DNA of 64,000 bases from the NCBI GenBank assembly GCA_022539475.1, contig VCMS01000095.1, positions 1-64,000 on the forward strand. Direction: 5' to 3'. The stretch is from Gracilaria domingensis (lineage: Eukaryota > Rhodophyta > Florideophyceae > Gracilariales > Gracilariaceae). Positions 20,347 to 62,547 of the stretch are shown here, one piece after another; the stretch's first letter is position 1, and each line of letters begins with the position of its first letter. Both the position numbers and the translations under genes were made by a program. The notes beneath the pieces are model-generated. The model was not told the origin of the DNA and ran no database searches. It saw nothing but the letters and a program-made list of their open reading frames with translations.

Positions 20347-21469
20347 TTTCACAATTTGCCAGGCTCCGCAAAAAGAAAAAGTCCGTTGTAAAACGCGGTT
20401 CGTAGTAGATGGGAGCGCTCTATGACAGCTCAGCCAGCACGCGAGCAAGCACGAGGAGCTTCTGATTCTCAACGACTGTGGGCTTCTTTTGTTCCTCCGT
20501 GGGCATCATCATGCAAGGAGAGGGATATCCCTAGGGTACCCAAATGTTCTGAGGATAATTAACAGTACCTGTGGTACCCTTGGGAGCGGAAGAGACGGCG
20601 AATGAGAGGGAAAAGGATTGAATCAACATACACATTGTTCAATCTGGAACGACAGTCACGAGAGTATCAGCATGCGTCGCGCAATGCAAAGCTGTTATCC
20701 TTAGGATATCCTCCGATAGCACTGGCACTTGCTGTAGATTTGGCACGGAGCAACTTTGATCTGTAGCAAAATTCTTACAAGCTTTCGGTTTGTCTTACCC
20801 TGCCCCTTTCTTCCTCTTAAGATAAGGGCCAGCCTTCTAACTTCGTCTGTCAAGTATCTCAACAAGAAATATGCAGCATGCTACTAAGCGGTACGTACTT
20901 TCCCACAAGTTGCATACAGCTCTCTATATACAGCATATCTATGAAGCGGTTTGCCCAATCGTTTGATACTTGGCATTTGAATTTAATAAATTCAATATTC
21001 AATACATTCCTCTGGAACGCTCCACTTGTGTCACACAAGTTGTGTGAAGTTCGTCGGATCGACAAGTGATCCAAGATCGAAGCCTCTATATCATCAAAAA
21101 TAAGAGGGGGAGATTCTGATATATCAATGATATTCTACAGCCTTTGTTTCGAAGACACCGTGAACAACAGCCAGAATGTCATTAGGCTCACGGGGCAGGG
21201 ACACATGCTTGCTTCTTGACTAAGGGCCTCCCAAGCTGTTCAACTGTAGGATGTAACTTATCTTAATACACATGGCAGCGCCTGGCTTTGCCGAGGCACA
21301 GGGGAGGAGCGACAGCACGACAACGAAAAAGGGACAGTTGCAGCAGGTTGCAATTACTACTCGCTCCCACAACAGTGATCCATGAGAATCACTCTTCGAA
21401 TTCAAATCCCAGCGTACACTCCAACATGCATTTAGGTCACACTCGCGTTCCTCCCGAAGGAGCTTAGAC
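20347..21469. other. intergenic
   Basis: About 1.1 kb between divergent genes. It includes a perfect 12-bp palindrome at 20521-20532 (AGGGATATCCCT) and several short related inverted motifs around GGTACC. No RNA gene recognised. Confidence 0.4.
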
Positions 21470-31976: not shown

Positions 31977-32343
31977 GCTGCCGTGTAACTGTATCTAGAC
32001 GCCCCTGAGATCTTGAGCCTTAAAACAAATGAGTGTGCCTTGAGGACATCTGCTGCCGCGTGTCGCAGCGTGTGGATTCCACGCTGTGGAAGCTGCTGGC
32101 CGCTTCTGGCCGCTTCCAGCCGCTTCCGGCCGCTTCCGGCCGCCGCCGCGCTACCGTTGAGGTCGCGCCGCGCGCCCACGCCGCCCGGACGCGCGCGCCA
32201 CGCGCGCCGCGTGTGCGCCGTGGCGCGCACCGCGCGCCGCGTATAAAGCCGCACGCGCCGTGTGCGCTGACGCGCCGAGATCGCGGGCGCCCCCGTCGGT
32301 GCGACCCCTCTCGGCGCTCTGTTGCTCAGCGGCGGCTGAGGGC
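31977..32343. other. intergenic with ClpB promoter
   Basis: Contains tandem GCCGCTTC(T/C)GG repeats around 32098-32146 and the promoter of the ClpB gene. Nothing else recognised. Confidence 0.4.
32242..32248 (+). promoter_or_regulatory. TATA-like box
   Basis: TATAAAG in an otherwise extremely GC-rich flank, about 100 bp upstream of the ClpB ATG at 32344. Confidence 0.5.
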
Positions 32344-41881: not shown

Positions 41882-41992
41882 GTGTATCGCCGCCTATATT
41901 ACATACAGACCATTGTAACCATACGACTCGTATGATACGAGGAAAACACCTTCCATCCCAACACGCTCTACTGCCCAACTCAAACCTCCGCC

Positions 41993-46813: not shown

Positions 46814-47912
46814 GATGAGAAGAATGTTGGCAATAATAGACGAACTATTACAAGCGTAAAGCTCTTGGGTGAGTGCGATTCGATGTCCGAAATTGCGTTT
46901 GAGGACGAAAGCTCACACTAGGAACAACCGCGGCGTCTTTCAGTCGAATCTAGATTCATTTTCTTGCTTCACCTAATATTTACCCCACAAGACCTCACTC
47001 ACTCGCGATGTGCCAATCTACTTTGGAATTGCATGGGGGGATCATCCCCAACATGGGTACTTCAATCATAGGGTTGTTCACGCATTTCCGCACGTGCAAC
47101 CTTGTCTGGAGATACCTTCGGTAGAATTAGACTGGCAAAAGACGTACCCTTGGTAACTAAATCTCAGTCTCGCGAGATAATCTCCGCAAATGAATGCCCG
47201 TTAACTGTCATTGGTCCTGCAACTGATTGGTGATCAACGCCGGTGAATTGTTCGTCGCTCGAGCAGATCGGTGGGCATCAGATACTGATGAGCAGTAGTG
47301 GAGAAACTGCGTGCTCGGAAGCTTGAGCGATGCTATCCGCAGTGATGAAGCAGAAGCGCAGCGCGAGAGACCTCTGTCGTGATTGTCGCGCAGACTCTAG
47401 GTAACGTCGTACACATAGTAGAGCAGCCCTTCATGCAGCCGCCAGACCGCTTGTCCGCAGGTCAAAGTAAACTTTGAAGTTTGACACGCAGTACGCGCGT
47501 CTCAAAAAAGTCAGGACTTCTGCGTTTATAGAAATCCAACTGGATTTCTACTCTAAAGCCATTCTTTGATGAAGAGCCGCTCTTCATCGAAGAATGGCAT
47601 TACCAGGGGTACATGTTGCCTGTTTTCTGTTGGCACCAAAGTTCTGTGACAAAACGCGCGCTTCGTGGGGCAACTTGCATGACATGCGACAACATTGTTG
47701 TGTCATGAAGAATAACGCTACCAACGGTAGCCTTCTACACTGTACTCGAATCCTTCCATGCCGCACTGTTTTTGTCAATTGACGAAGAACAGAGAAGGGC
47801 TTCCAGCGCCAGCTATGGCCTTAAATACAGCTCAGTAGCATCATAGAGAACAAGTAGCGTTGTAACGTCTCAACATCTCCGGTCGCCTCAAACACATGAT
47901 ATTGAGTGCGAA
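46814..47912. other. divergent intergenic region with palindrome cluster
   Basis: About 1.1 kb between divergent genes. The segment 47529-47731 is a dense set of inverted repeats, listed separately. The remainder is unremarkable. Confidence 0.5.
47529..47731. repeat. cluster of palindromes
   Basis: Four inverted repeats in about 200 bp. First: 47529-47538 with 47541-47550, 10-base perfect arms, 2-base spacer. Second: 47558-47577 with 47579-47598, 20-base arms, 1-base spacer, one U-G-compatible mismatch. Third: ACAACATTGTTGT within 47689-47702, 6-base arms and a 1-base spacer. Fourth: 47717-47722 with 47726-47731, 6-base arms. It lies about 180-380 bp upstream of the orphan gene. Confidence 0.85.
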
Positions 47913-50234
47913 ATGTGGATTCGCAGTTTGCACTATGAAAGGCTCGACGTCTCAGATGTTACGAAAGCACTGGCGGATATGGATGTTCCAGCCCGTTTCA
48001 CCGCCGATGTTTCTCACGCCAATGCTTATCTTCGCGGAACTCCGATTCTGAAGTTGATCTCAGATGCTGTGGCAAATGAGATGTCGTTAAAGCGACAAAC
48101 TATCGATGTCTCTGGCACCTGGAAAGTTGTTGACGAGCATCACTGGAAACAAGCTCTACAGTTTGCAAAAGGCTTTGAGTGGCAGCCAATTGAAGTTTGT
48201 GTCGATCGCATCTTGAAGACGGCGGACGAGGTAATCGCTGGAGAAGAAAGCATGATCGAAAGTTTAGGTGATCCTTTTATCTTCAAATCTACTTTTCGTC
48301 AAGATCATGAGTATGGTTTGCAGGTGTCTTTCGTTCTTCAAGCCATGTTTATAGTGTCATTGGTCGAAAGTCATGGAGGAACATTCATCTGGAATCGCAG
48401 CGCATGGGAACCGGAGAGAATCGGCTACAAGAAATTTCCTGTATCATGGAAAGATGGTAAATATGTCCTTAAACACACACATGTTTCCAGATTCTTTGCT
48501 CGGTTCCATACCCGTTCGAAACGAGGGGCTGCTAGATTGCTTGATTTTCCACATGCCACAAGAGAAGTCGAGACGCTCACATCTTCGGGTCACAGCAAGC
48601 AAGAGGTCCGTGGATTTGCTGAGTCGAGAGATCCCGCGAGAGCTGCTATCTGGGCAAATATTACGGTTAGAGAACTCCGTTTGCATGCTCTATCAAGTCT
48701 TCTAGAGACGAATCAGAACCATTTAGTGAAGTATGCAGCAGAGGAAGGGGTCGACTTAGCGGATCTTCTAGCGTTGGGGTTACGCACAGCTGTTCATTCG
48801 CGAATTGGATTGGTACTTTGGCACAACTCGCGCGTACTTTCTTGGCCTTCCTTAAGCGAAGCAACCATTGAAGGATACTCATTCATGCTTGATTGGGGTC
48901 TTACTCGAGAAATGCAGCTTTTGGTTGGGGCAAAGCGGCGATATCACTACTTGCGTGCTTACTGCGATGCCAACCAAAGAAAATGGGCCGCAGGTGGTAG
49001 GAAATGGGTTTTCGCTAACAATGAGACATATGAGAGCTTTCCTTCGGTCTTAAACAAACCAAGATCTGCTTTGGACATTCTTTGGTGGTATGCAAGAGGC
49101 ATGATTTCTAACGAAGAGGCATTCAGAAGAAACAAACTTGATGCTCAAGCACGATTACGGCGACCACGGCACGTGAAGTATATTGAGTCGGCAGAAGAAT
49201 CAAGCTTAAAACCGCCGATCGGCGATCTGATGCTCGCCTCGTTAAGTGAAAGAATTGATTTGGAAAATCAAAGGGGATGCGAGGTTGGTTATCAACGATG
49301 TTTTGGAGAAAAACCAGGAAAGGGGAATGAAATCTTAGATGACGAGATGGTTACAGTTCTAAGTTATCGTCACGAGAGCCCTTCTGTGCGAATGAGTGTT
49401 GAAAATTGGAAGTATTGTTATGAAGACATATGCACGTTAATCTTGATTCACGGAAAAAAGGCAGCGAGGGTATGGACTGATAAGCTTGCTTCGATCGCTA
49501 GAAAAGGCGCTACATGGATTGAAAGCGGCGTAGAGCCTTACAGAAACGGAATTGTTCTTGCATTTAACGGGATTGGTGACTCCGTCCTTGTAGACCGGTT
49601 TTGGATATCAATGGAACGAAACACAGCGATACGAGCATGGGGTTATTGGTTTAGGGATGATCTTGGGCAAATGACTAGGTTTGCGAATGAAGAGTATCCA
49701 GCAAGAAAGTCGGACCGAGAATTTCTGAGGCAGATTTTGTGTACACCTGGTCGTTCAGATGGACCGTTGTGGGAAGAAGATAGGTTGGAAGTGATACGTG
49801 AAGCGGCAGATTTATTAGGGGTGAGCGATATTAATTCTTTCTGGGAATGCTTGTGTGAGCAGCAGCTTGAAGAGATGTTCGTACCTTTCGAGACAGTGCA
49901 TCAGAAACGAAACTGTGGGGAACGAAATGCCAAAGGGTGGGAGCCACTAGTGGATTGTTTAGTCGATCGTGATTTGATCGAAAAGAGCTTGAAGTTTGAA
50001 CTCAAAGATAGGTCCAAGAGAAAAGTTATCAAGTGGAGAACCGGTGAGTCAGAACGCGTGGCAGCTGCTGAGTCGTGGACGTCAGACCAATGGTTTGTGT
50101 GTCTTGTCGAGTTGCAGGAAACCGACGGGCGATTAAAGCTTGCGGATATCATCGAGAGGAAATTGATGACGATGACGGAGCTGGAGTTCTTGCTTGCAGC
50201 GTGCGACCGGTGCGACGAGGAGGTTTGGGAATGA
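47913..50234 (+). CDS. orphan protein, 773 residues
   Basis: A continuous 773-codon frame from ATG 47913 with normal codon use and composition, so it is almost certainly a gene, but no family is recognised. It is rich in Trp, Arg and Glu, mostly helical in appearance, without signal peptide or membrane helix. No catalytic triad, Walker or zinc motif is visible; HVSRFFARFHTRSKRG (about residues 190-205) is a basic patch. The gene lies between two palindrome clusters (47.53-47.73 kb and 50.53-51.17 kb), an unusual setting that may be coincidental. Lineage-specific or fast-evolving proteins are the likely explanation. Confidence 0.85.
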   Translation: MWIRSLHYERLDVSDVTKALADMDVPARFTADVSHANAYLRGTPILKLISDAVANEMSLKRQTIDVSGTWKVVDEHHWKQALQFAKGFEWQPIEVCVDRILKTADEVIAGEESMIESLGDPFIFKSTFRQDHEYGLQVSFVLQAMFIVSLVESHGGTFIWNRSAWEPERIGYKKFPVSWKDGKYVLKHTHVSRFFARFHTRSKRGAARLLDFPHATREVETLTSSGHSKQEVRGFAESRDPARAAIWANITVRELRLHALSSLLETNQNHLVKYAAEEGVDLADLLALGLRTAVHSRIGLVLWHNSRVLSWPSLSEATIEGYSFMLDWGLTREMQLLVGAKRRYHYLRAYCDANQRKWAAGGRKWVFANNETYESFPSVLNKPRSALDILWWYARGMISNEEAFRRNKLDAQARLRRPRHVKYIESAEESSLKPPIGDLMLASLSERIDLENQRGCEVGYQRCFGEKPGKGNEILDDEMVTVLSYRHESPSVRMSVENWKYCYEDICTLILIHGKKAARVWTDKLASIARKGATWIESGVEPYRNGIVLAFNGIGDSVLVDRFWISMERNTAIRAWGYWFRDDLGQMTRFANEEYPARKSDREFLRQILCTPGRSDGPLWEEDRLEVIREAADLLGVSDINSFWECLCEQQLEEMFVPFETVHQKRNCGERNAKGWEPLVDCLVDRDLIEKSLKFELKDRSKRKVIKWRTGESERVAAAESWTSDQWFVCLVELQETDGRLKLADIIERKLMTMTELEFLLAACDRCDEEVWE

Positions 50235-50534: not shown

Positions 50535-50557
50535 GAGACCCGCTGTCAGCGGGTCTC
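50535..50557. repeat. perfect hairpin A
   Basis: Eleven-base perfect arms (50535-50545 and 50547-50557) around a one-base spacer, beginning GAGACCCGCT. Confidence 0.9.
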
Positions 50558-50570
50558 CGGGGGACCGTTG

Positions 50571-50587
50571 TGACGTCAATGACGTCG
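50571..50587. repeat. paired CRE-like TGACGTC sites
   Basis: TGACGTCA (50571-50578, a perfect palindrome and classical cAMP-response/bZIP site) is followed by TGACGTCG (50580-50587). They lie between hairpins A and B. Confidence 0.7.
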
Positions 50588-50670
50588 CAACTGTCTCCGC
50601 TGTCTCTAATGATAAGAGTGTGATTGTGCTCATGGTACGATAATCATAGCATGATTCTGAGAGACTGAGT

Positions 50671-50701
50671 CCAGGGTTCCCAGCGGCGCTGGGAACCCTG
50701 G
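50671..50701. repeat. perfect hairpin B
   Basis: Fifteen-base perfect arms (50671-50685 and 50687-50701) with a one-base spacer. The flanks GAGAGACTGAGT and ATTCAAGACTCTC extend the pairing imperfectly. Confidence 0.92.
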
Positions 50702-50714
50702 ATTCAAGACTCTC

Positions 50715-50743
50715 AATAGCTGCGCTGGGCCAGCGCAGCTATT
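50715..50743. repeat. perfect hairpin C
   Basis: Fourteen-base perfect arms (50715-50728 and 50730-50743) with a one-base spacer, starting AATAGCTGCGCTGG. Confidence 0.92.
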
Positions 50744-51058
50744 TAGTTGTCGACAAGTGCGGGAGGACGCTTGGGACTGCGACGCAACCAGCCTTCTTCC
50801 ACATAGTTTAACCCTCCCACCACGTGTACTGCTGTCAACAACCTTGCACTTACCCAGGGTACTTTTCATTGGAGGGGAACATTTGTGACAACACTGCGGT
50901 GTTCGGAAAGCAACTTTTAAATTTGAAAACGTCTCTGTCATCCTTTCTTCCCACTTCACGTAGAGGCTCTTCAGGCCTAACTGGTGTCTACCTTCGTATA
51001 ATATGTAACTGATAGTGGTCGCTGCGCCAGCTCTCCCCAACGTGCCTTCCACGACCTC

Positions 51059-51127
51059 ACCATCGTAACGTGCTTGTCTCAAACCATTGTAACTTGCAAT
51101 GGTTTGAGACAAGCACGTTACGATGGT
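51059..51127. repeat. perfect hairpin D, 31-bp arms
   Basis: Arms 51059-51089 and 51097-51127 are exactly complementary over 31 bases with a 7-base loop (TAACTTG). This is the longest perfect inverted repeat in the window. It overlaps hairpin E by three bases. Confidence 0.95.
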
Positions 51128-51173
51128 TGTAATGTGACGGTCTTACAATTTGTAGGACCGTCACATTACAACC
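51125..51173. repeat. near-perfect hairpin E, 24-bp arms
   Basis: Arms 51125-51148 and 51150-51173 pair with a single T-G mismatch (51143 with 51155) and a one-base centre. It is adjacent to and overlaps hairpin D. Confidence 0.93.
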
Positions 51174-51933: not shown

Positions 51934-53628
51934 CTAGAACTCGCCAGTAACCTGCTGGACAGAGCTTGAAACGAAGACGTTGTTGTCACCACTCTCCCAC
52001 TCAATGCCGACGTCTGCTTCCGTATCATCTCGTTTAAGACACTTCCACTCCACCCTTTTGCCGTACCCCACATCAATGTATCCGCTCCAAACAGAGCGTC
52101 CCTCAAGAACGAGTTTCACCGCCTTAGCCACTTTCCAGCGCCCAAGCTCATCAACACTACCAATCGCGAACACGCTTTGTCCAGATCGAACAAATGCATT
52201 GTTACACGTAAACTTCACCTTCACTACTTCGCTACTCTTGTCCTCAATGCGCTGATCCTGAAACCCTTTGGGTAATTCACCTACTCTCGTTCCAACGTGT
52301 ATCGCAGCCGCTCCAATTGTCTTCACCTGAAATCGAGCCTTGCCATTACTTCCAACCTCAATCACGTCGCCGCTACAAACGCCATCTTCAAATTCACCGT
52401 TCACAATGTCGCAGTACCTACCGGCCGCCATACCAGCATCAAGAACGCGATCCATATCCCCATCTTCTCGATTGATCACAACAAACCCCTGTCCTCCGCG
52501 TCCGAAAGCAATTTGATGGTTGCCGTTATCCCACCAGTTGGTGAGTCGGAACTCGGAAGAGCAAACCTCTCGAAATTTGACCATGTTCGCAATTCCTCTC
52601 CATCGATGCTCGCAGACCCATTCTTCCCCACATCGTGCGCCTGAATGTACACCCTTCGATGGCGGACCTTGGTCATGATCCTCAAAGAAATAACTGGACA
52701 TAACCTTTGGATATCCATAGGGATAAGCCAAACTGAAAATCTCGCCAATGTAGTACAACCCTCTGACGTCCTTGTACGTCAGCGTGTTGAACGTATTCTG
52801 CCGTTGATCGTCATGATTCGAAACAAACACCACCGCATCATCGCTATTGAGCCACCCATCAAAGTTGACAATGTTTCTCAGTTCTTTGAGTGGGCCACGT
52901 CCCTTAAAGTAAAAGCCCAACGTGCGTTCAAAGTTGAATTCAGTGACAGCAGCGTTACCCACGTACTCAGCCGGTTGTACAGGTTCTCCACCAGCACCAA
53001 TTACTTCTTGGAAGATGTACACGGGCTTGTCCAACTTGGCGATGATAGCAGCAATGTCAGCCGAAGGCATATGCTTTGCGGCATCGATACGAAAGCCCTT
53101 GACGCCTAGACCGATTAGGTCATTCATGTACGCAGCGATCCTGCCACGAACGTATTCAGATTCGGTCTTCAAATCGTTCAAACCGACCAGGTCACAGTTC
53201 TGCACCTCGAAACGATTGTTGTAGTTGATGGGCGTGACACAAGTATGGAAGTCATTTGGAGAGTACGGAACCTCAGGGAAGCTTCGATCCAAGGCGGCCA
53301 TATGATTGATGATCGCATCCACATAGATGTCGACGCCTACCATGGCGCAACGCTTCACCATGGATCGAAACTGAGATCTTGTACCACTTCTGCCCTCCAC
53401 TGCATAGCTGAGCGGCTGATAACGGGACCACCATTCTGGACGATCAACAGACTTTTGCGGCGGGGATACTTGCACTGCTGCGAATCGTTTTGGGCCTAAG
53501 TGCTGCTCACATTCCTTGGCAATGTCATCCCAGCTCCATTCGAACAGATGAACAAATGCGGTACGGGAAGATGCAGGTAGTACAAGAGCAAGCACAATAA
53601 GAGCTGAAAGAGAGCGTAACAAAACCAT
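51934..53628 (-). CDS. secreted alpha-amylase with C-terminal starch-binding domain
   Basis: The 564-residue product starts at ATG 53628 with a signal peptide (MVLLRSLSALIVLALVLPAS). The GH13 catalytic domain has the nucleophile Asp in VKGFRIDAAKHM, the acid/base Glu in VYIFQEVI and the transition-state Asp in VFVSNHDDQRQN, with WWDNGNHQIAFGRG in domain C. The C-terminal 100 residues (VKVKFTCNNAFVRSGQSVFA, DELGRWKVAKAVKL) form a CBM20-type starch-binding module. The enzyme cleaves internal alpha-1,4 bonds of starch-like glucans. Red algal floridean starch is cytosolic, so a signal peptide suggests extracellular glucans or a vacuolar route. A TATA box lies about 70 bp upstream. Confidence 0.93.
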   Translation of the reverse strand: MVLLRSLSALIVLALVLPASSRTAFVHLFEWSWDDIAKECEQHLGPKRFAAVQVSPPQKSVDRPEWWSRYQPLSYAVEGRSGTRSQFRSMVKRCAMVGVDIYVDAIINHMAALDRSFPEVPYSPNDFHTCVTPINYNNRFEVQNCDLVGLNDLKTESEYVRGRIAAYMNDLIGLGVKGFRIDAAKHMPSADIAAIIAKLDKPVYIFQEVIGAGGEPVQPAEYVGNAAVTEFNFERTLGFYFKGRGPLKELRNIVNFDGWLNSDDAVVFVSNHDDQRQNTFNTLTYKDVRGLYYIGEIFSLAYPYGYPKVMSSYFFEDHDQGPPSKGVHSGARCGEEWVCEHRWRGIANMVKFREVCSSEFRLTNWWDNGNHQIAFGRGGQGFVVINREDGDMDRVLDAGMAAGRYCDIVNGEFEDGVCSGDVIEVGSNGKARFQVKTIGAAAIHVGTRVGELPKGFQDQRIEDKSSEVVKVKFTCNNAFVRSGQSVFAIGSVDELGRWKVAKAVKLVLEGRSVWSGYIDVGYGKRVEWKCLKRDDTEADVGIEWESGDNNVFVSSSVQQVTGEF

Positions 53629-54846
53629 TGCGGAGCTGGATGATGCTATGAGAGCCGATGAAGAGTATGTGGATCTCACTCGGCGCTGGGGTTCCTTTTA
53701 TAGCGTTGAGCGGCATGCTGCGATTGTTTGACGGCGACTCGACTGCGGTTTGACGGCGTTTGACGATTGTTTGAGGGGGAGCTGACGGAGTTTTGGCTCT
53801 GTGCGCTAAATGCGGGGGCGTATGTTACAAATTTGGTACGACACGCCATTGGGGAAGATGATGGCGCCGATGGCAATGCGAGCTTTGCGGCATGGATGGA
53901 GATGAGGGAAGGAACTGTAAAGAGACGATGGCTCACCACGACGGGGCGACATTTTGTATGTACACATGGGGGATGGGAGGGGGCGGTAGCTGGAACAAGA
54001 AGCACGATTGAAAAGGGACTGATGGCGGGAACGTCATTGCTCTGATGGCGGCCACTTAGCCCTTTCCGAGATAAGTTGTATAGATGGGATGTTATCAGGA
54101 GTTACCTACGGTAGTGCGAAGCAAGCAGCTCACCAAGGGGGACGTGTGGGAATTTGGGGAGAAGGTGGACTGCGGCACCAGGGGCTTGCGAACGAGGGTG
54201 GGCGGATGGGCACAGCTTTCATAACGCTTTACGCAAGGCGCGATGGAAGTTCATACGAAGGTGGGTACAGGCGTAGCCCTGATACGGCCGCGCGTGGTGC
54301 GAGATCCGCAACTACAACGGTACGTATTCGATCACATGATGCACGCCGGCAATGCCAGCGCAATGCCTACGTGGCACGGCCAGGGCTTGCCGTTGTCTCG
54401 CCCAAGTGCGCCACGTCACTCCGCGCTCCACGGCGACCACGTTAGCACCGTGGCTGGTCCTTCGCGTCGCGAATTTTGCGACCGATTGCGCCGCGTCTGT
54501 CGTTGGAGCATCTAAGTGCTCGACATTGTCGAGTACAATCATCGCCATCATCATCCCCCCAATTACCGTGCTATTGCCATCGTTGTGTCTCCCGCCTCCT
54601 TCCGACATAATTCGCCACTTCCCAAGCGCCCCTTTCCACTTCGCACCGCCCCCGGCTTTTAATTCATCCCCGTCGTCCCGCCCATTGCGAACCCATCGCC
54701 ATGTCTCTCCGCGCCGTTCCCCTTCGCGTCGCCGTACATAAGGCGCCCATCTCCGGGTCGCCGTGCTTCTCGTCCCTCTCCCTACCAACCTCACCCGTGT
54801 CCCCGCACCGCCTCCTTCAGCCCTACAGACTTTGAAAGCCTTCAAC
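53629..54846. other. divergent promoter interval and 5' flank of duplication copy 1
   Basis: Contains the amylase promoter and the 5' flank of the first Ser-Pro-stalk gene. The stretch 54090-54240 is homologous to 56515-56602 plus 57406-57475 and therefore carries the intact (empty) insertion site of the hAT-like element; the empty target is CCAGGGGC at 54178-54185. The stretch from about 54490 to the ATG is homologous to 58555-58913. Confidence 0.6.
53697..53703 (-). promoter_or_regulatory. TATA box
   Basis: On the minus strand this reads TATAAAA, about 70 bp upstream of the amylase ATG. Confidence 0.55.
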
Positions 54847-57405: not shown

Positions 57406-57540
57406 CCAGGGGCTTGCGAACGAGGGTGGGCGGATGGGCACAGCTTTCATTACGCTTCACGCAAGTTGCAGTAGACTTTTCCGATGTGCGAACGACCTTG
57501 GGATGCAGAGCAAAAAGCAAATCCGTCGCTCAACAGCAGG

Positions 57541-58405
57541 TAGGCATTTATCCGGACGGCTAGCCGTTTGAATGCACCCGTTGCAAACCCATCCAAAATT
57601 ACCCTGGACGAATTTGGAAAATCGAAAACTACATTTTAATTTATCCGTCTTCGCCCACATTATAAAAACTGTTTTCGCAAAACAACCGAGTCCAAACATT
57701 TATGATCTTATCGGTTCCGGAAAAAACCAATACGTTTGCGATTATGGATAATCCGAAATAGTAAAAATTTCTAAACGGATTGTATACTATGTTTTCTATT
57801 TGCAAAACTGCTTTGAAGATTTGAACTCCGTTTAAATTCATAATCATTTAGTCTGATAAGATGAAAAACTTCTTGTTGCCTTTTTATATGCAGTTTCTTT
57901 GTAAGTATATGCTAGAACACTGTATAAACACAGCAGGCAACGAAAGGTTTTATGTTCAGACCTGAAACCAATACCCCAGGAACGGCTTATTGACAAAAGA
58001 ACTCAATGTTTTCACAATAAATATATAGTTGACACTTATAAAGACTCAGAAAAGGAATTACAGTTCTTTGAGATAGCTTAGTTCAATTTTGAAAGCTACG
58101 TGTAGTTATTTGGAATTATTTGGTTAGCAATGAATATAATTTCTCGTTTAGAAAAATTTGGTTACTTAACGAAAACGAATACTGTTAGTTTTTGAAAGAA
58201 CACATATATCAAAACCGTGGCATCCGTTACTGTTTGAAAGTCTGCAGAAATCATTCTTTACGATCCATATTGGTTTGTTGTAGTTTTTCTCAAATTCATA
58301 TCCGATTATGTCCGGAATTTCTACACGCCATTCTTGTTTCTAGTTGTTTATTATGCATCGTACTTCAGAGCCTATATGGATAATATCCGTCCGAATAAAC
58401 CCCTA
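57541..58405. mobile_element. non-autonomous hAT-like transposon 2 (865 bp)
   Basis: The left end reads TAGGCATTTATCCGGACGG and the reverse complement of the right end reads TAGGGGTTTATTCGGACGG, 16 of 19 positions identical. Exact 8-bp target duplications ACAGCAGG flank it at 57533-57540 and 58406-58413. The interior is AT-rich, with recurring ATCCG/CGGAT motifs, probably subterminal binding sites. No open frame is longer than about 70 residues. The perfect duplication suggests a younger insertion than transposon 1. Confidence 0.9.
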
Positions 58406-58913
58406 ACAGCAGGGTCTGTCTTGACTAATTACTGTAAGCGTGCAGTTCGGTATCAGCTTGATCCGCATCTGTCGTCGGCGAGTCGACATGCTCGACTGGT
58501 GAGAGTCGACACGAGTCGACAATCGGTCGAGCACGGTCGACAGTGCCATTAAATAAAGGTCTCGTTCGTTCCTTCGTTCGTTGACAGTGCCGTGCCTCGA
58601 CAATCATCGCCACCATCATCCCACGCCCGCGCGCTATTATATTATCGTCGTGTCTCCCGCCTCCTTCCGACATAATTCGTCAGTTCCGCTGCGCCCCTTT
58701 CCACTTCCCACCGCCCCCAGCTTTTAATTCACCCCCGCCGTCCCGACCATTGCGAACCCGTCGCCATGTCTCTCCGCGCCGTTCCCCTTCGCACGTCGCC
58801 GCACATAAGCCGCCCATCTCCAGGTCGCCGTGCTTCCCGTCCCTCTCCCCACCAACCTCACCCGCGTCCCCGCGCCGCCTCCTTCAGCCCTACAGACTTG
58901 GAAAGCCTTCAAC
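58406..58913. other. 5' flank of copy 2
   Basis: Shares the segment upstream of the ATG with copy 1 (from about 58555). The stretch 58470-58545 is rich in GTCGAC palindromes and TCGAC words. ATTAAATA at about 58550 may be a TATA-like element. Confidence 0.5.
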
Positions 58914-61359: not shown

Positions 61360-62547
61360 ATGAATGTTCCCATATCGCAGTTTCCGTTGAATGTGCTTCA
61401 GCATATATTTAAGATCGGTGTGGAACAAGTTTGGCGTTTATCTGCAGAATACATTCGTCAACACCCCCCGGTCATAATCGTTGATGACGAACCGTTTGGT
61501 TACCTCTTCAGATCAGATGGGGATCGTTTCGAGTATCATCCGAATATCTTAACACTGATACAATGCGCATCAGTTTGCAAAACCTGGGCAGACGCCGTAA
61601 TTGACCGCGACTTTTGGGACTCACTCAAGCTCGGCATGGACATACATGACCTTACAGAGCCGTGGAAGCTCGGGAGAAGATGGAATGAACTGTTCAGAGA
61701 TATGCCTGTTCACCTCCTGTGTTTAAAGGAACAGGCCGTGACAAACATTGGAAAAATATCGACATCCGTGGAGCGAGGTCGATGCGCGTTCAATATATAT
61801 TTTCCAGAGAAGGCCTTCTCTGGAAATGATTTGCCGGAAGCATGGTATCATCTGCATAGTTTACTACGATACGATTGTGAGCACCTGAAGCTCATATCTA
61901 CCCCGGCCCATACCGTATCCGGCATCTGTGGTGATAGAAGGATTGGGTTATACAGTGTCATGTCCTTAACATGGCCACGGTTATTGTCCTTATCAGTCGA
62001 CAACGCTAATGATGAAGTTCGGAACTACAGAATGGCTCGACGGCTTTCTCGTTATATGTCACTACCTGAAGACGTTGTGAAGGCGCGTGCGCCGCTTCCT
62101 GCTCTAAAAAAGCTTTGCCTCTCTGGCAACCTGAGGTCTGATATTCATCGATTCGTGCCACTTGTCTCTCCGCGACTCGAACATTTCTGGGTGAACATTT
62201 CTGAATTAGAACCATATTATGTTGTGGAGGGGAAGCCTAGGCAAATGCACAAGAAGCGTCTCCTTCACGAAAAGTTCCTTGAAGAAGACAAGGCCTACAG
62301 AACATTTGTGACCACGTTTTGCATGCACGCATTCAAATGGCCAGGACCCAAGACCATGGATGAACATAAAAAAGAGTGGATCTCCAGGTCCTCTGATATC
62401 TTTATACAGACTAATGTGTTGATCTTCGAAAGACGAGGAGGGAAGCGATGTTCACTGCAACTAAGCGTCAAAGAGTTTTTTGAGGTAGAAACCTCAGAAA
62501 ACTTCGCATTCCGGAGGCATGCGAAGACGGCATCGCTTGAAGGATAA
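61360..62547 (+). CDS. F-box-like protein
   Basis: The 395-residue product starts at ATG 61360 (MNVPISQFPLNVLQHIFKIG), the first part of an F-box, which is completed by SVCKTWADAVIDRDFWDSLK after an insertion of about 45 residues. An insertion inside an F-box is unusual. The remaining part contains repeated Leu-rich stretches (LKLISTPAHTVSGI, ALKKLCLSGNLRSDIHRFV) that could form irregular leucine-rich repeats, the usual substrate-binding partner of F-boxes in SCF ubiquitin ligases. The upstream open frame lacks ATG. The substrate is unknown; a non-SCF F-box role is also possible. Confidence 0.7.
   Translation: MNVPISQFPLNVLQHIFKIGVEQVWRLSAEYIRQHPPVIIVDDEPFGYLFRSDGDRFEYHPNILTLIQCASVCKTWADAVIDRDFWDSLKLGMDIHDLTEPWKLGRRWNELFRDMPVHLLCLKEQAVTNIGKISTSVERGRCAFNIYFPEKAFSGNDLPEAWYHLHSLLRYDCEHLKLISTPAHTVSGICGDRRIGLYSVMSLTWPRLLSLSVDNANDEVRNYRMARRLSRYMSLPEDVVKARAPLPALKKLCLSGNLRSDIHRFVPLVSPRLEHFWVNISELEPYYVVEGKPRQMHKKRLLHEKFLEEDKAYRTFVTTFCMHAFKWPGPKTMDEHKKEWISRSSDIFIQTNVLIFERRGGKRCSLQLSVKEFFEVETSENFAFRRHAKTASLEG

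Follow-up and report, generated by a model that had tools for sequence, protein, structure and literature searches.

What could pack five perfect or near-perfect hairpins into about 640 bp of DNA between two convergent genes? The question is raised by positions 50535 to 51173 of a 64,000-nucleotide stretch of the red alga Gracilaria domingensis (GenBank assembly GCA_022539475.1, contig VCMS01000095.1, positions 1 to 64,000), referred to here as the window. We report that four of the five hairpins very probably represent two excision scars of transposons of the hAT superfamily, each scar consisting of two adjacent palindromes built around one target-site duplication (TSD). Coordinates are those of the window unless a locus (L) or contig (C) label precedes them, and palindromes, scars and short motifs are given without strand.

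Hairpins B and C form one adjacent pair and hairpins D and E another, and they are not independent of each other. Hairpin B (50666 to 50706), the left palindrome of scar 1, consists of the left flank, a centre G at 50686 and the complement of the left flank; its arms are perfect over 16 bases, or 20 if one mismatch is allowed. Hairpin C (50712 to 50746), the right palindrome of scar 1, is centred on G at 50729, with arms of 14 bases perfect or 17 with one mismatch. In scar 2, the left palindrome, hairpin D (51059 to 51127), has 34-bp arms around C at 51093, with a single mismatch that adjoins the centre and the outer 31 arm bases perfect; the right palindrome, hairpin E (51125 to 51173), has 24-bp arms with one mismatch around T at 51149. 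D and E share 3 bp (GGT), which would represent microhomology at a junction. The fifth, hairpin A (50535 to 50557), has 11-base arms around a T, and no TSD partner was found for it. An earlier, sequence-only reading of the window had described five hairpins between convergent genes, with D and E fused by a 3-bp overlap, and all of this is present as described. It had put the arms at 11, 15, 14, 31 and 24 bases, figures now refined for B to E by those above, and had counted four one-base centres where all five hairpins are centred on a single base.

Within each pair, the six bases that adjoin the left centre are found again next to the right one, with one mismatch in D/E. The left arm of B ends in C/CCAGCG before the centre G, and in C the centre G is followed by CCAGCG/C. 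The left arm of D ends in A/TTGTAA before the centre C, and in E the centre T is followed by TTGTAG/G, the other arm of E reading TTGTAA on the complementary strand. Written as n1 to n8, the TSD is CCCAGCGC in scar 1 and ATTGTAAG in scar 2. The copies in scar 1, read from the sequence, are n1 to n7 (CCCAGCG) on the left at 50679 to 50685 and n2 to n8 (CCAGCGC) on the right at 50730 to 50736. Those in scar 2 are n1 to n7 (ATTGTAA) at 51086 to 51092, found both in the sequence and by the rule scan described below, and n2 to n8 (TTGTAGG) at 51150 to 51156, which differs from the left copy by one mismatch; all four lie on the plus strand. For both scars, complementing n8 gives the base at the left centre, and complementing n1 gives the base at the right. 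The rule is that a one-base centre complements whichever base is needed to complete the 8-bp TSD, and all four centres obey it. Excision of hAT elements is indicated for these four hairpins because of the paired 8-bp TSDs and the centres that follow this complement rule.

The scars could have arisen as follows. A transposon would have inserted with an 8-bp TSD (n1 to n8). At excision, the transposase would nick one base inside the flank and each flank would be sealed as a hairpin, the left with n1 to n7 joined to n8' n7' and onward, the right with n2' n1' joined to n2 to n8 (primes mark complements). Repair nucleases would then nick the hairpins about 17 to 34 nt from the tip, leaving long inverted tails (palindromic, or P, nucleotides), and the tails would be joined through short homology, such as the 3 bp GGT at D/E. 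This would yield a pair of neighbouring palindromes of odd length, each having a one-base centre with n2 to n7 on its outer side. A nuclease of the MRE11/CtIP kind, acting on a protected end, would be consistent with opening so far from the tip; we infer the identity of the nuclease, the end-joining pathway and which element departed from each site. The scars are most likely without function today.

The hairpin cluster is real and far beyond chance. Comparison with shuffled sequence, which the sequence-only reading had proposed, was run on 327,528 bases, comprising the window and loci L007 to L034 of the same genome; this sample is not strictly random, since besides the window it takes in adjacent parts of the same contig and the flanks of transposons. 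For the palindrome count, the second and third copies of one transposon were masked, low-complexity arms were filtered and five Markov shuffles were used. Palindromes with a one-base centre and arms of at least 14 bases numbered 7 versus 0.0 in the shuffles, and those with arms of at least 8 bases 31 versus 5.6; they are present at many sampled places of the genome. Other loop sizes from 0 to 12 gave 3 to 19 palindromes each, several above the shuffles (loop 6, 19 versus 3.4). Palindromes are generally in excess, those with a one-base centre most of all.

The rule was derived from the two pairs and written down before other DNA was scanned for a shared word beside two centres with the gap between them tiled by complements of the flanks, a word of 6 corresponding to a TSD of 8; the complexity filter and thresholds were set during exploration. 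With an exact word of 6 and a tiled gap, both centre rules hold at 11 places in the sample, one rule at 5 (simple repeats when inspected by eye) and neither at 4. Both rules hold in 5 of 78, 1 of 41, 0 of 2 and 0 of 0 places for words of 4, 5, 7 and 8, respectively, and four shuffles gave 0 cases with both rules for the exact word of 6. None of the 11 places is scar 1 or scar 2, and two of them lie in the window. Were the sample representative, 11 per 327,528 bases would correspond to about 2,600 over 77.9 Mb.

The commonest form detected (9 of 11) is a 22-base scar that reads n1 X n8' X' n1' X n8, that is, the TSD less one base, the inverted TSD and again the TSD less one base; two of the nine carry one mismatch in the inverted part. 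Pairing between the two tails here appears to have involved the 8-bp TSD itself. All 7 exact matches to the 22-base signature in the sample obey both centre rules, and a separate gap table returned the same 7 against 0; in 30 shuffles, cases with both rules averaged 0.00 for exact matches and 0.13 at one mismatch. In this form, words of 7 and 8 gave no exact case and words of 4 and 5 no preference for the centre rule, and other TSD lengths likewise show none. Two exact 22-base scars lie in the window, at 21025 to 21046 (TSD CTTGTGTG) and 41920 to 41941 (TSD CATACGAG), each found by the rule scan, the gap table and the 22-base signature. A possible third, at 32070 to 32091 (TSD GTGTGGAA, one mismatch), is less sure because it lies inside a 420-codon stop-to-stop frame. 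By context, 9 of 13 scars inspected are outside stop-to-stop frames of at least 200 codons and 4 are inside.

Two further cases are long, like the pairs of the cluster. In L008:5773-5817 the 22-bp arms are followed by n2 to n8; in L018:1986-2022 the arms are 18 bp long, and after them a small right palindrome precedes n2 to n8. The TSDs were tallied over 14 scars, namely the two of the cluster, the 7 exact and one near 22-base scars, L008:5773, L018:1986, and L009:4538 and L018:403, which are the gap-7 and gap-10 cases of the gap table. The one-mismatch candidates L020:8723, L022:8090 and window 32070 were left out, and L015:6279 and L026:3476 (5 TSD bases each), which fit a one-sided form of the rule in part, were not counted. 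Position 7 is A in 12 of 14 scars and position 2 is T in 8 of 14. As a tendency, the tally resembles nTnnnnAn, the target given for the hAT transposase Hermes in the cited part of PMC2803484; the TSD of scar 2 fits it.

The genome contains many hAT sequences. A profile search returned at least 109 matches to the hAT dimerization region (PF05699), 40 of them in open frames of at least 600 amino acids (aa); one match lies at about 160 kb on the contig that contains the window. A 5.7-kb element has copies on C1, C59 and C241 with 98.8 to 99.7% identity and 8-bp TSDs (GTCCCGAG, CTCGGAAC and GTGCTCGT). The protein of its L027 copy carries the C-terminal PF05699 region (E 1.5e-14), the only part recognized by Pfam, the DDE catalytic domain with its insertion domain not being recognized at a threshold of E 0.1; the C terminus of this transposase matches Hermes over about 70 residues (E 5e-11). 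The window itself holds a non-autonomous hAT element of 865 bp on the plus strand at 57541 to 58405, with ends TAGGCATTTATCCGGACGG... and ...CCGTCCGAATAAACCCCTA, between TSD copies ACAGCAGG at 57533 to 57540 and 58406 to 58413, both plus strand. By comparison of the termini (2 mismatches in 20 bases at the right end, 4 in 19 at the left), it shares its terminal inverted repeats with the autonomous-type 5.7-kb element.

The assembly has eight other near-full copies of the 865-bp element, six at 99 to 100% identity, one at 93% and one at 85%, with matches that end at or a few bases from its termini. Seven of these were read at their ends, and six have perfect 8-bp TSDs; two of the six, on C556 and C361, have the same flanks and may represent a single locus that was assembled twice. 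The copy at C74:134431-135336 (L047 and L048) has the left TSD GTCCGGAG and a right flank composed of one extra base, the inverted TSD and the TSD less one base. This is possibly a one-sided hairpin event, in which the flank was opened and rejoined to the element. hAT elements have moved recently in this genome.

A diverged paralogue of the window from about 50575 to between 50830 and 50890 lies on contig C32 (L012:5440-5800), and the segment from 50746 to 50807, with this paralogue, served as a partial empty site. The C32 paralogue does not have the inserted length of scar 1. The global alignment score to C32, 44 for the unaltered sequence, became 61 when scar 1 was collapsed as the model predicts, a 2-base gap remaining close to the site. 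The comparison supports excision; it is not proof, because the bases at the scar site have diverged. Paralogues covering seven other scars (41920, 21025, three sites in L009 searched as one 10-kb query, L018:1986 and L008:5773) were not found. The segment shared with C32 is apparently non-coding.

Several observations weigh against this interpretation. At the cluster, scar 2 requires one mismatch in a TSD copy, and the TSD of scar 1, CCCAGCGC, does not fit nTnnnnAn. Scar 1 escaped the gap-tiled scan because flank complements cover, by a hand count, only 37 of its 42 gap bases, the ends being worn. In the C32 paralogue the scar site itself has diverged, and no empty-site allele was found for comparison at the scars. 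In the scans, allowing one mismatch in the word gave 18 places with both rules, 31 with one and 30 with none, and one of the four shuffles then gave 4 both-rule cases; the arms of scar 2 are far longer than in the one-mismatch scan cases. An initial scan, in which tiling was stricter and the complexity filter was not yet applied, found 6, 5, 4, 6, 1, 0, 0 and 0 matches for words of 3 to 10, and the excess at word 6 is clear only after simple repeats are set aside. The 22-base form at one mismatch gave 4 cases with both rules, 1 with one and 3 with none, and words of 8 gave one near case. Footprints with short tips (gaps 0 to 2), the customary kind in other systems, showed no clear excess in the sample, gap 1 giving 8 cases with both rules versus 40 without. 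The TSD of L009:494, one of the 7 exact cases, contains the self-complementary TCCGGA, so that tandem duplication could mimic a scar, and this case is weaker evidence than the rest of the 7. Tandem duplication may also mimic the right flank of the C74 copy, because its TSD contains the same TCCGGA. Finally, hAT excision is not the sole source of palindromes, because several with one-base centres fit no TSD: hairpin A and the long, perfect or nearly perfect ones at 47558-47598, L015:4582-4622, L015:4907-4935 and L017:1532.

The last of these suggests a second process. L017:1532-1578 is a perfect 23-bp palindrome, and its tandem paralogue, L017:463-841, has only a shorter quasi-palindrome without 13 bases of the outer left arm, a difference that would suit template switching. 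Template switching during replication (quasi-palindrome correction), which PMC8794818 describes as able to create hairpins, might likewise have perfected each hairpin of the cluster, but it gives no reason to expect hairpins in adjacent pairs, a duplicated target of 8 bp or centres that follow the complement rule, all of which are seen in B+C, in D+E and in 11 further cases. We consider it very unlikely as the origin of the cluster. The sequence-only reading had proposed recent formation by template switching or foldback insertion; the events do look recent, and those two routes do not hold for four of the five hairpins, in which the 8-bp TSDs are paired and the centres follow the complement rule. 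Scars of another transposon superfamily, with a different TSD length or no 1-nt offset, would leave room for palindromes that the hAT rule does not explain, both even, such as the one at 61801 to 61826, and odd, such as hairpin A. Only words of 6 (TSD 8) stand out with both centre rules, however, and words of 4, 5, 7 and 8 do not, which makes such an origin highly improbable.

The hairpins might instead be a selected feature, either a hairpin RNA gene with a microRNA (miRNA)-like precursor or a terminator between convergent genes. They do lie between convergent open reading frames (ORFs), and the predicted RNA folds of D+E and B+C are far better than those of shuffled sequences (z of -18.2 and -10.5), but good folding is expected of any long palindrome. 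All 26 Rfam hits listed (E up to 1, both strands) are below the gathering score, the best reaching 41.9 of 74 bits, and the hairpins of the cluster do not reach the gathering score of an Rfam miRNA family. The same class of structure also occurs at other sampled places with unrelated sequences. We regard selection as extremely unlikely, and the earlier suggestion of a selected small-RNA gene or a recombination or replication structure found no support. Perfect inverted repeats are also a known form of assembly or sequencing artefact, produced by inverted chimeric reads. Such reads would not be expected to yield an 8-bp TSD and complementary centres, and the arms hold a few differences; the probability of an artefact is close to negligible. 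Excision of hAT elements is by far the most probable explanation for B to E.

That the hairpins are not copies of one unit, as had been noted, agrees with a genome search in which B to E matched only their own other strand, and a common repeat family was rejected on this basis; the search scored the best candidates only, and hairpin A is absent from the matches listed. The hairpin sequences differ because each scar is built from its own flank. Hairpin A was considered as a one-sided scar and rejected, with no TSD on either side by eye; its origin is unexplained. The long even palindrome at 61801 to 61826 is outside the hAT rule and likewise unexplained. Elsewhere in the sample, L015:3693-3778 and L024:162-247 are a repeated two-hairpin unit in opposite orientations, and L026:3476-3548 is a long imperfect palindrome between two direct repeats of about 100 bp with 82% identity.

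The paired TGACGTC sites reported inside the cluster are real, at 50571 to 50577 and 50580 to 50586 (together 50571 to 50586), and resemble a cyclic AMP response element (CRE). The doubling is probably a short direct duplication, because the paralogous segment on C32 has TGACGTC once; a hAT footprint was rejected here, the centre bases being wrong by eye. The convergent ORFs beside the cluster are a 773-aa ORF on the plus strand (47913 to 50234), which is without a Pfam match, and an alpha-amylase ORF on the minus strand (51934 to 53679). Phycobilisome linkers are found on several contigs of the genome and on C680, and light-harvesting complex (LHC) genes are also present; together they mark the genome as that of a red alga.

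Ac, like hAT elements in general, makes an 8-bp TSD. In V(D)J coding joints, off-centre hairpin opening also leaves inverted tails (P nucleotides), usually of a few bases, and these joints are not known to carry an 8-bp TSD, unlike the algal scars. The closest likeness is to Ac/Ds footprints, studied with the maize elements in Saccharomyces cerevisiae, Arabidopsis and Candida albicans; the cited part of PMC5873905 explains them by flank hairpins, with P insertions whose centre is complementary to the base adjoining the element. The hAT transposases Hermes and Kat1 are described as forming flank hairpins in the cited sections of PMC4763223 and PMC6900584, and Kat1 as cutting mostly 1 nt from its own end (PMC4763223). 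The algal transposase is similar to Hermes over the C-terminal stretch noted above. Quasi-palindrome correction by template switching (PMC8794818) likewise gives perfect hairpins, without TSD pairing or a centre rule.

This kind of scar is itself known from Ac/Ds. What differs in the alga is the length of the arms, 22 nt (L008), 24 nt (E, one mismatch) and 34 nt (D, one mismatch), which exceeds the maxima quoted in the cited part of PMC5873905, 20 nt in yeast and 3 nt in Candida. The 22-base form prevails among the scars detected in the alga, and the algal scars are natural and present in an assembly. Titles and abstract openings in the open-licence literature yielded no genome-wide description of such scars in an alga. 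We suggest tentatively that hAT flank hairpins in this alga are routinely opened far from the tip, at a distance of at least about 8 nt and reaching about 34 nt, and that excision thereby leaves long perfect inverted repeats behind in the genome.

If this is so, the departure of a transposon would be a standing source of ready-made hairpins, some of them of sufficient length to be raw material from which small-RNA genes, structured transcript ends or fragile sites could develop, and perfect inverted repeats would arise without selection or template switching. The scars would also document, in nature, the way in which DNA hairpins are opened in this lineage. From their geometry one can read, without experiment, the TSD, the offset of the cut and the minimum distance at which the hairpins were opened, and it offers a simple test for past hAT excision that is applicable to any assembly. 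Tails longer than those quoted for yeast and Candida suggest a different hairpin-opening step in the red alga, and an odd cluster of hairpins becomes a legible record of DNA repair.
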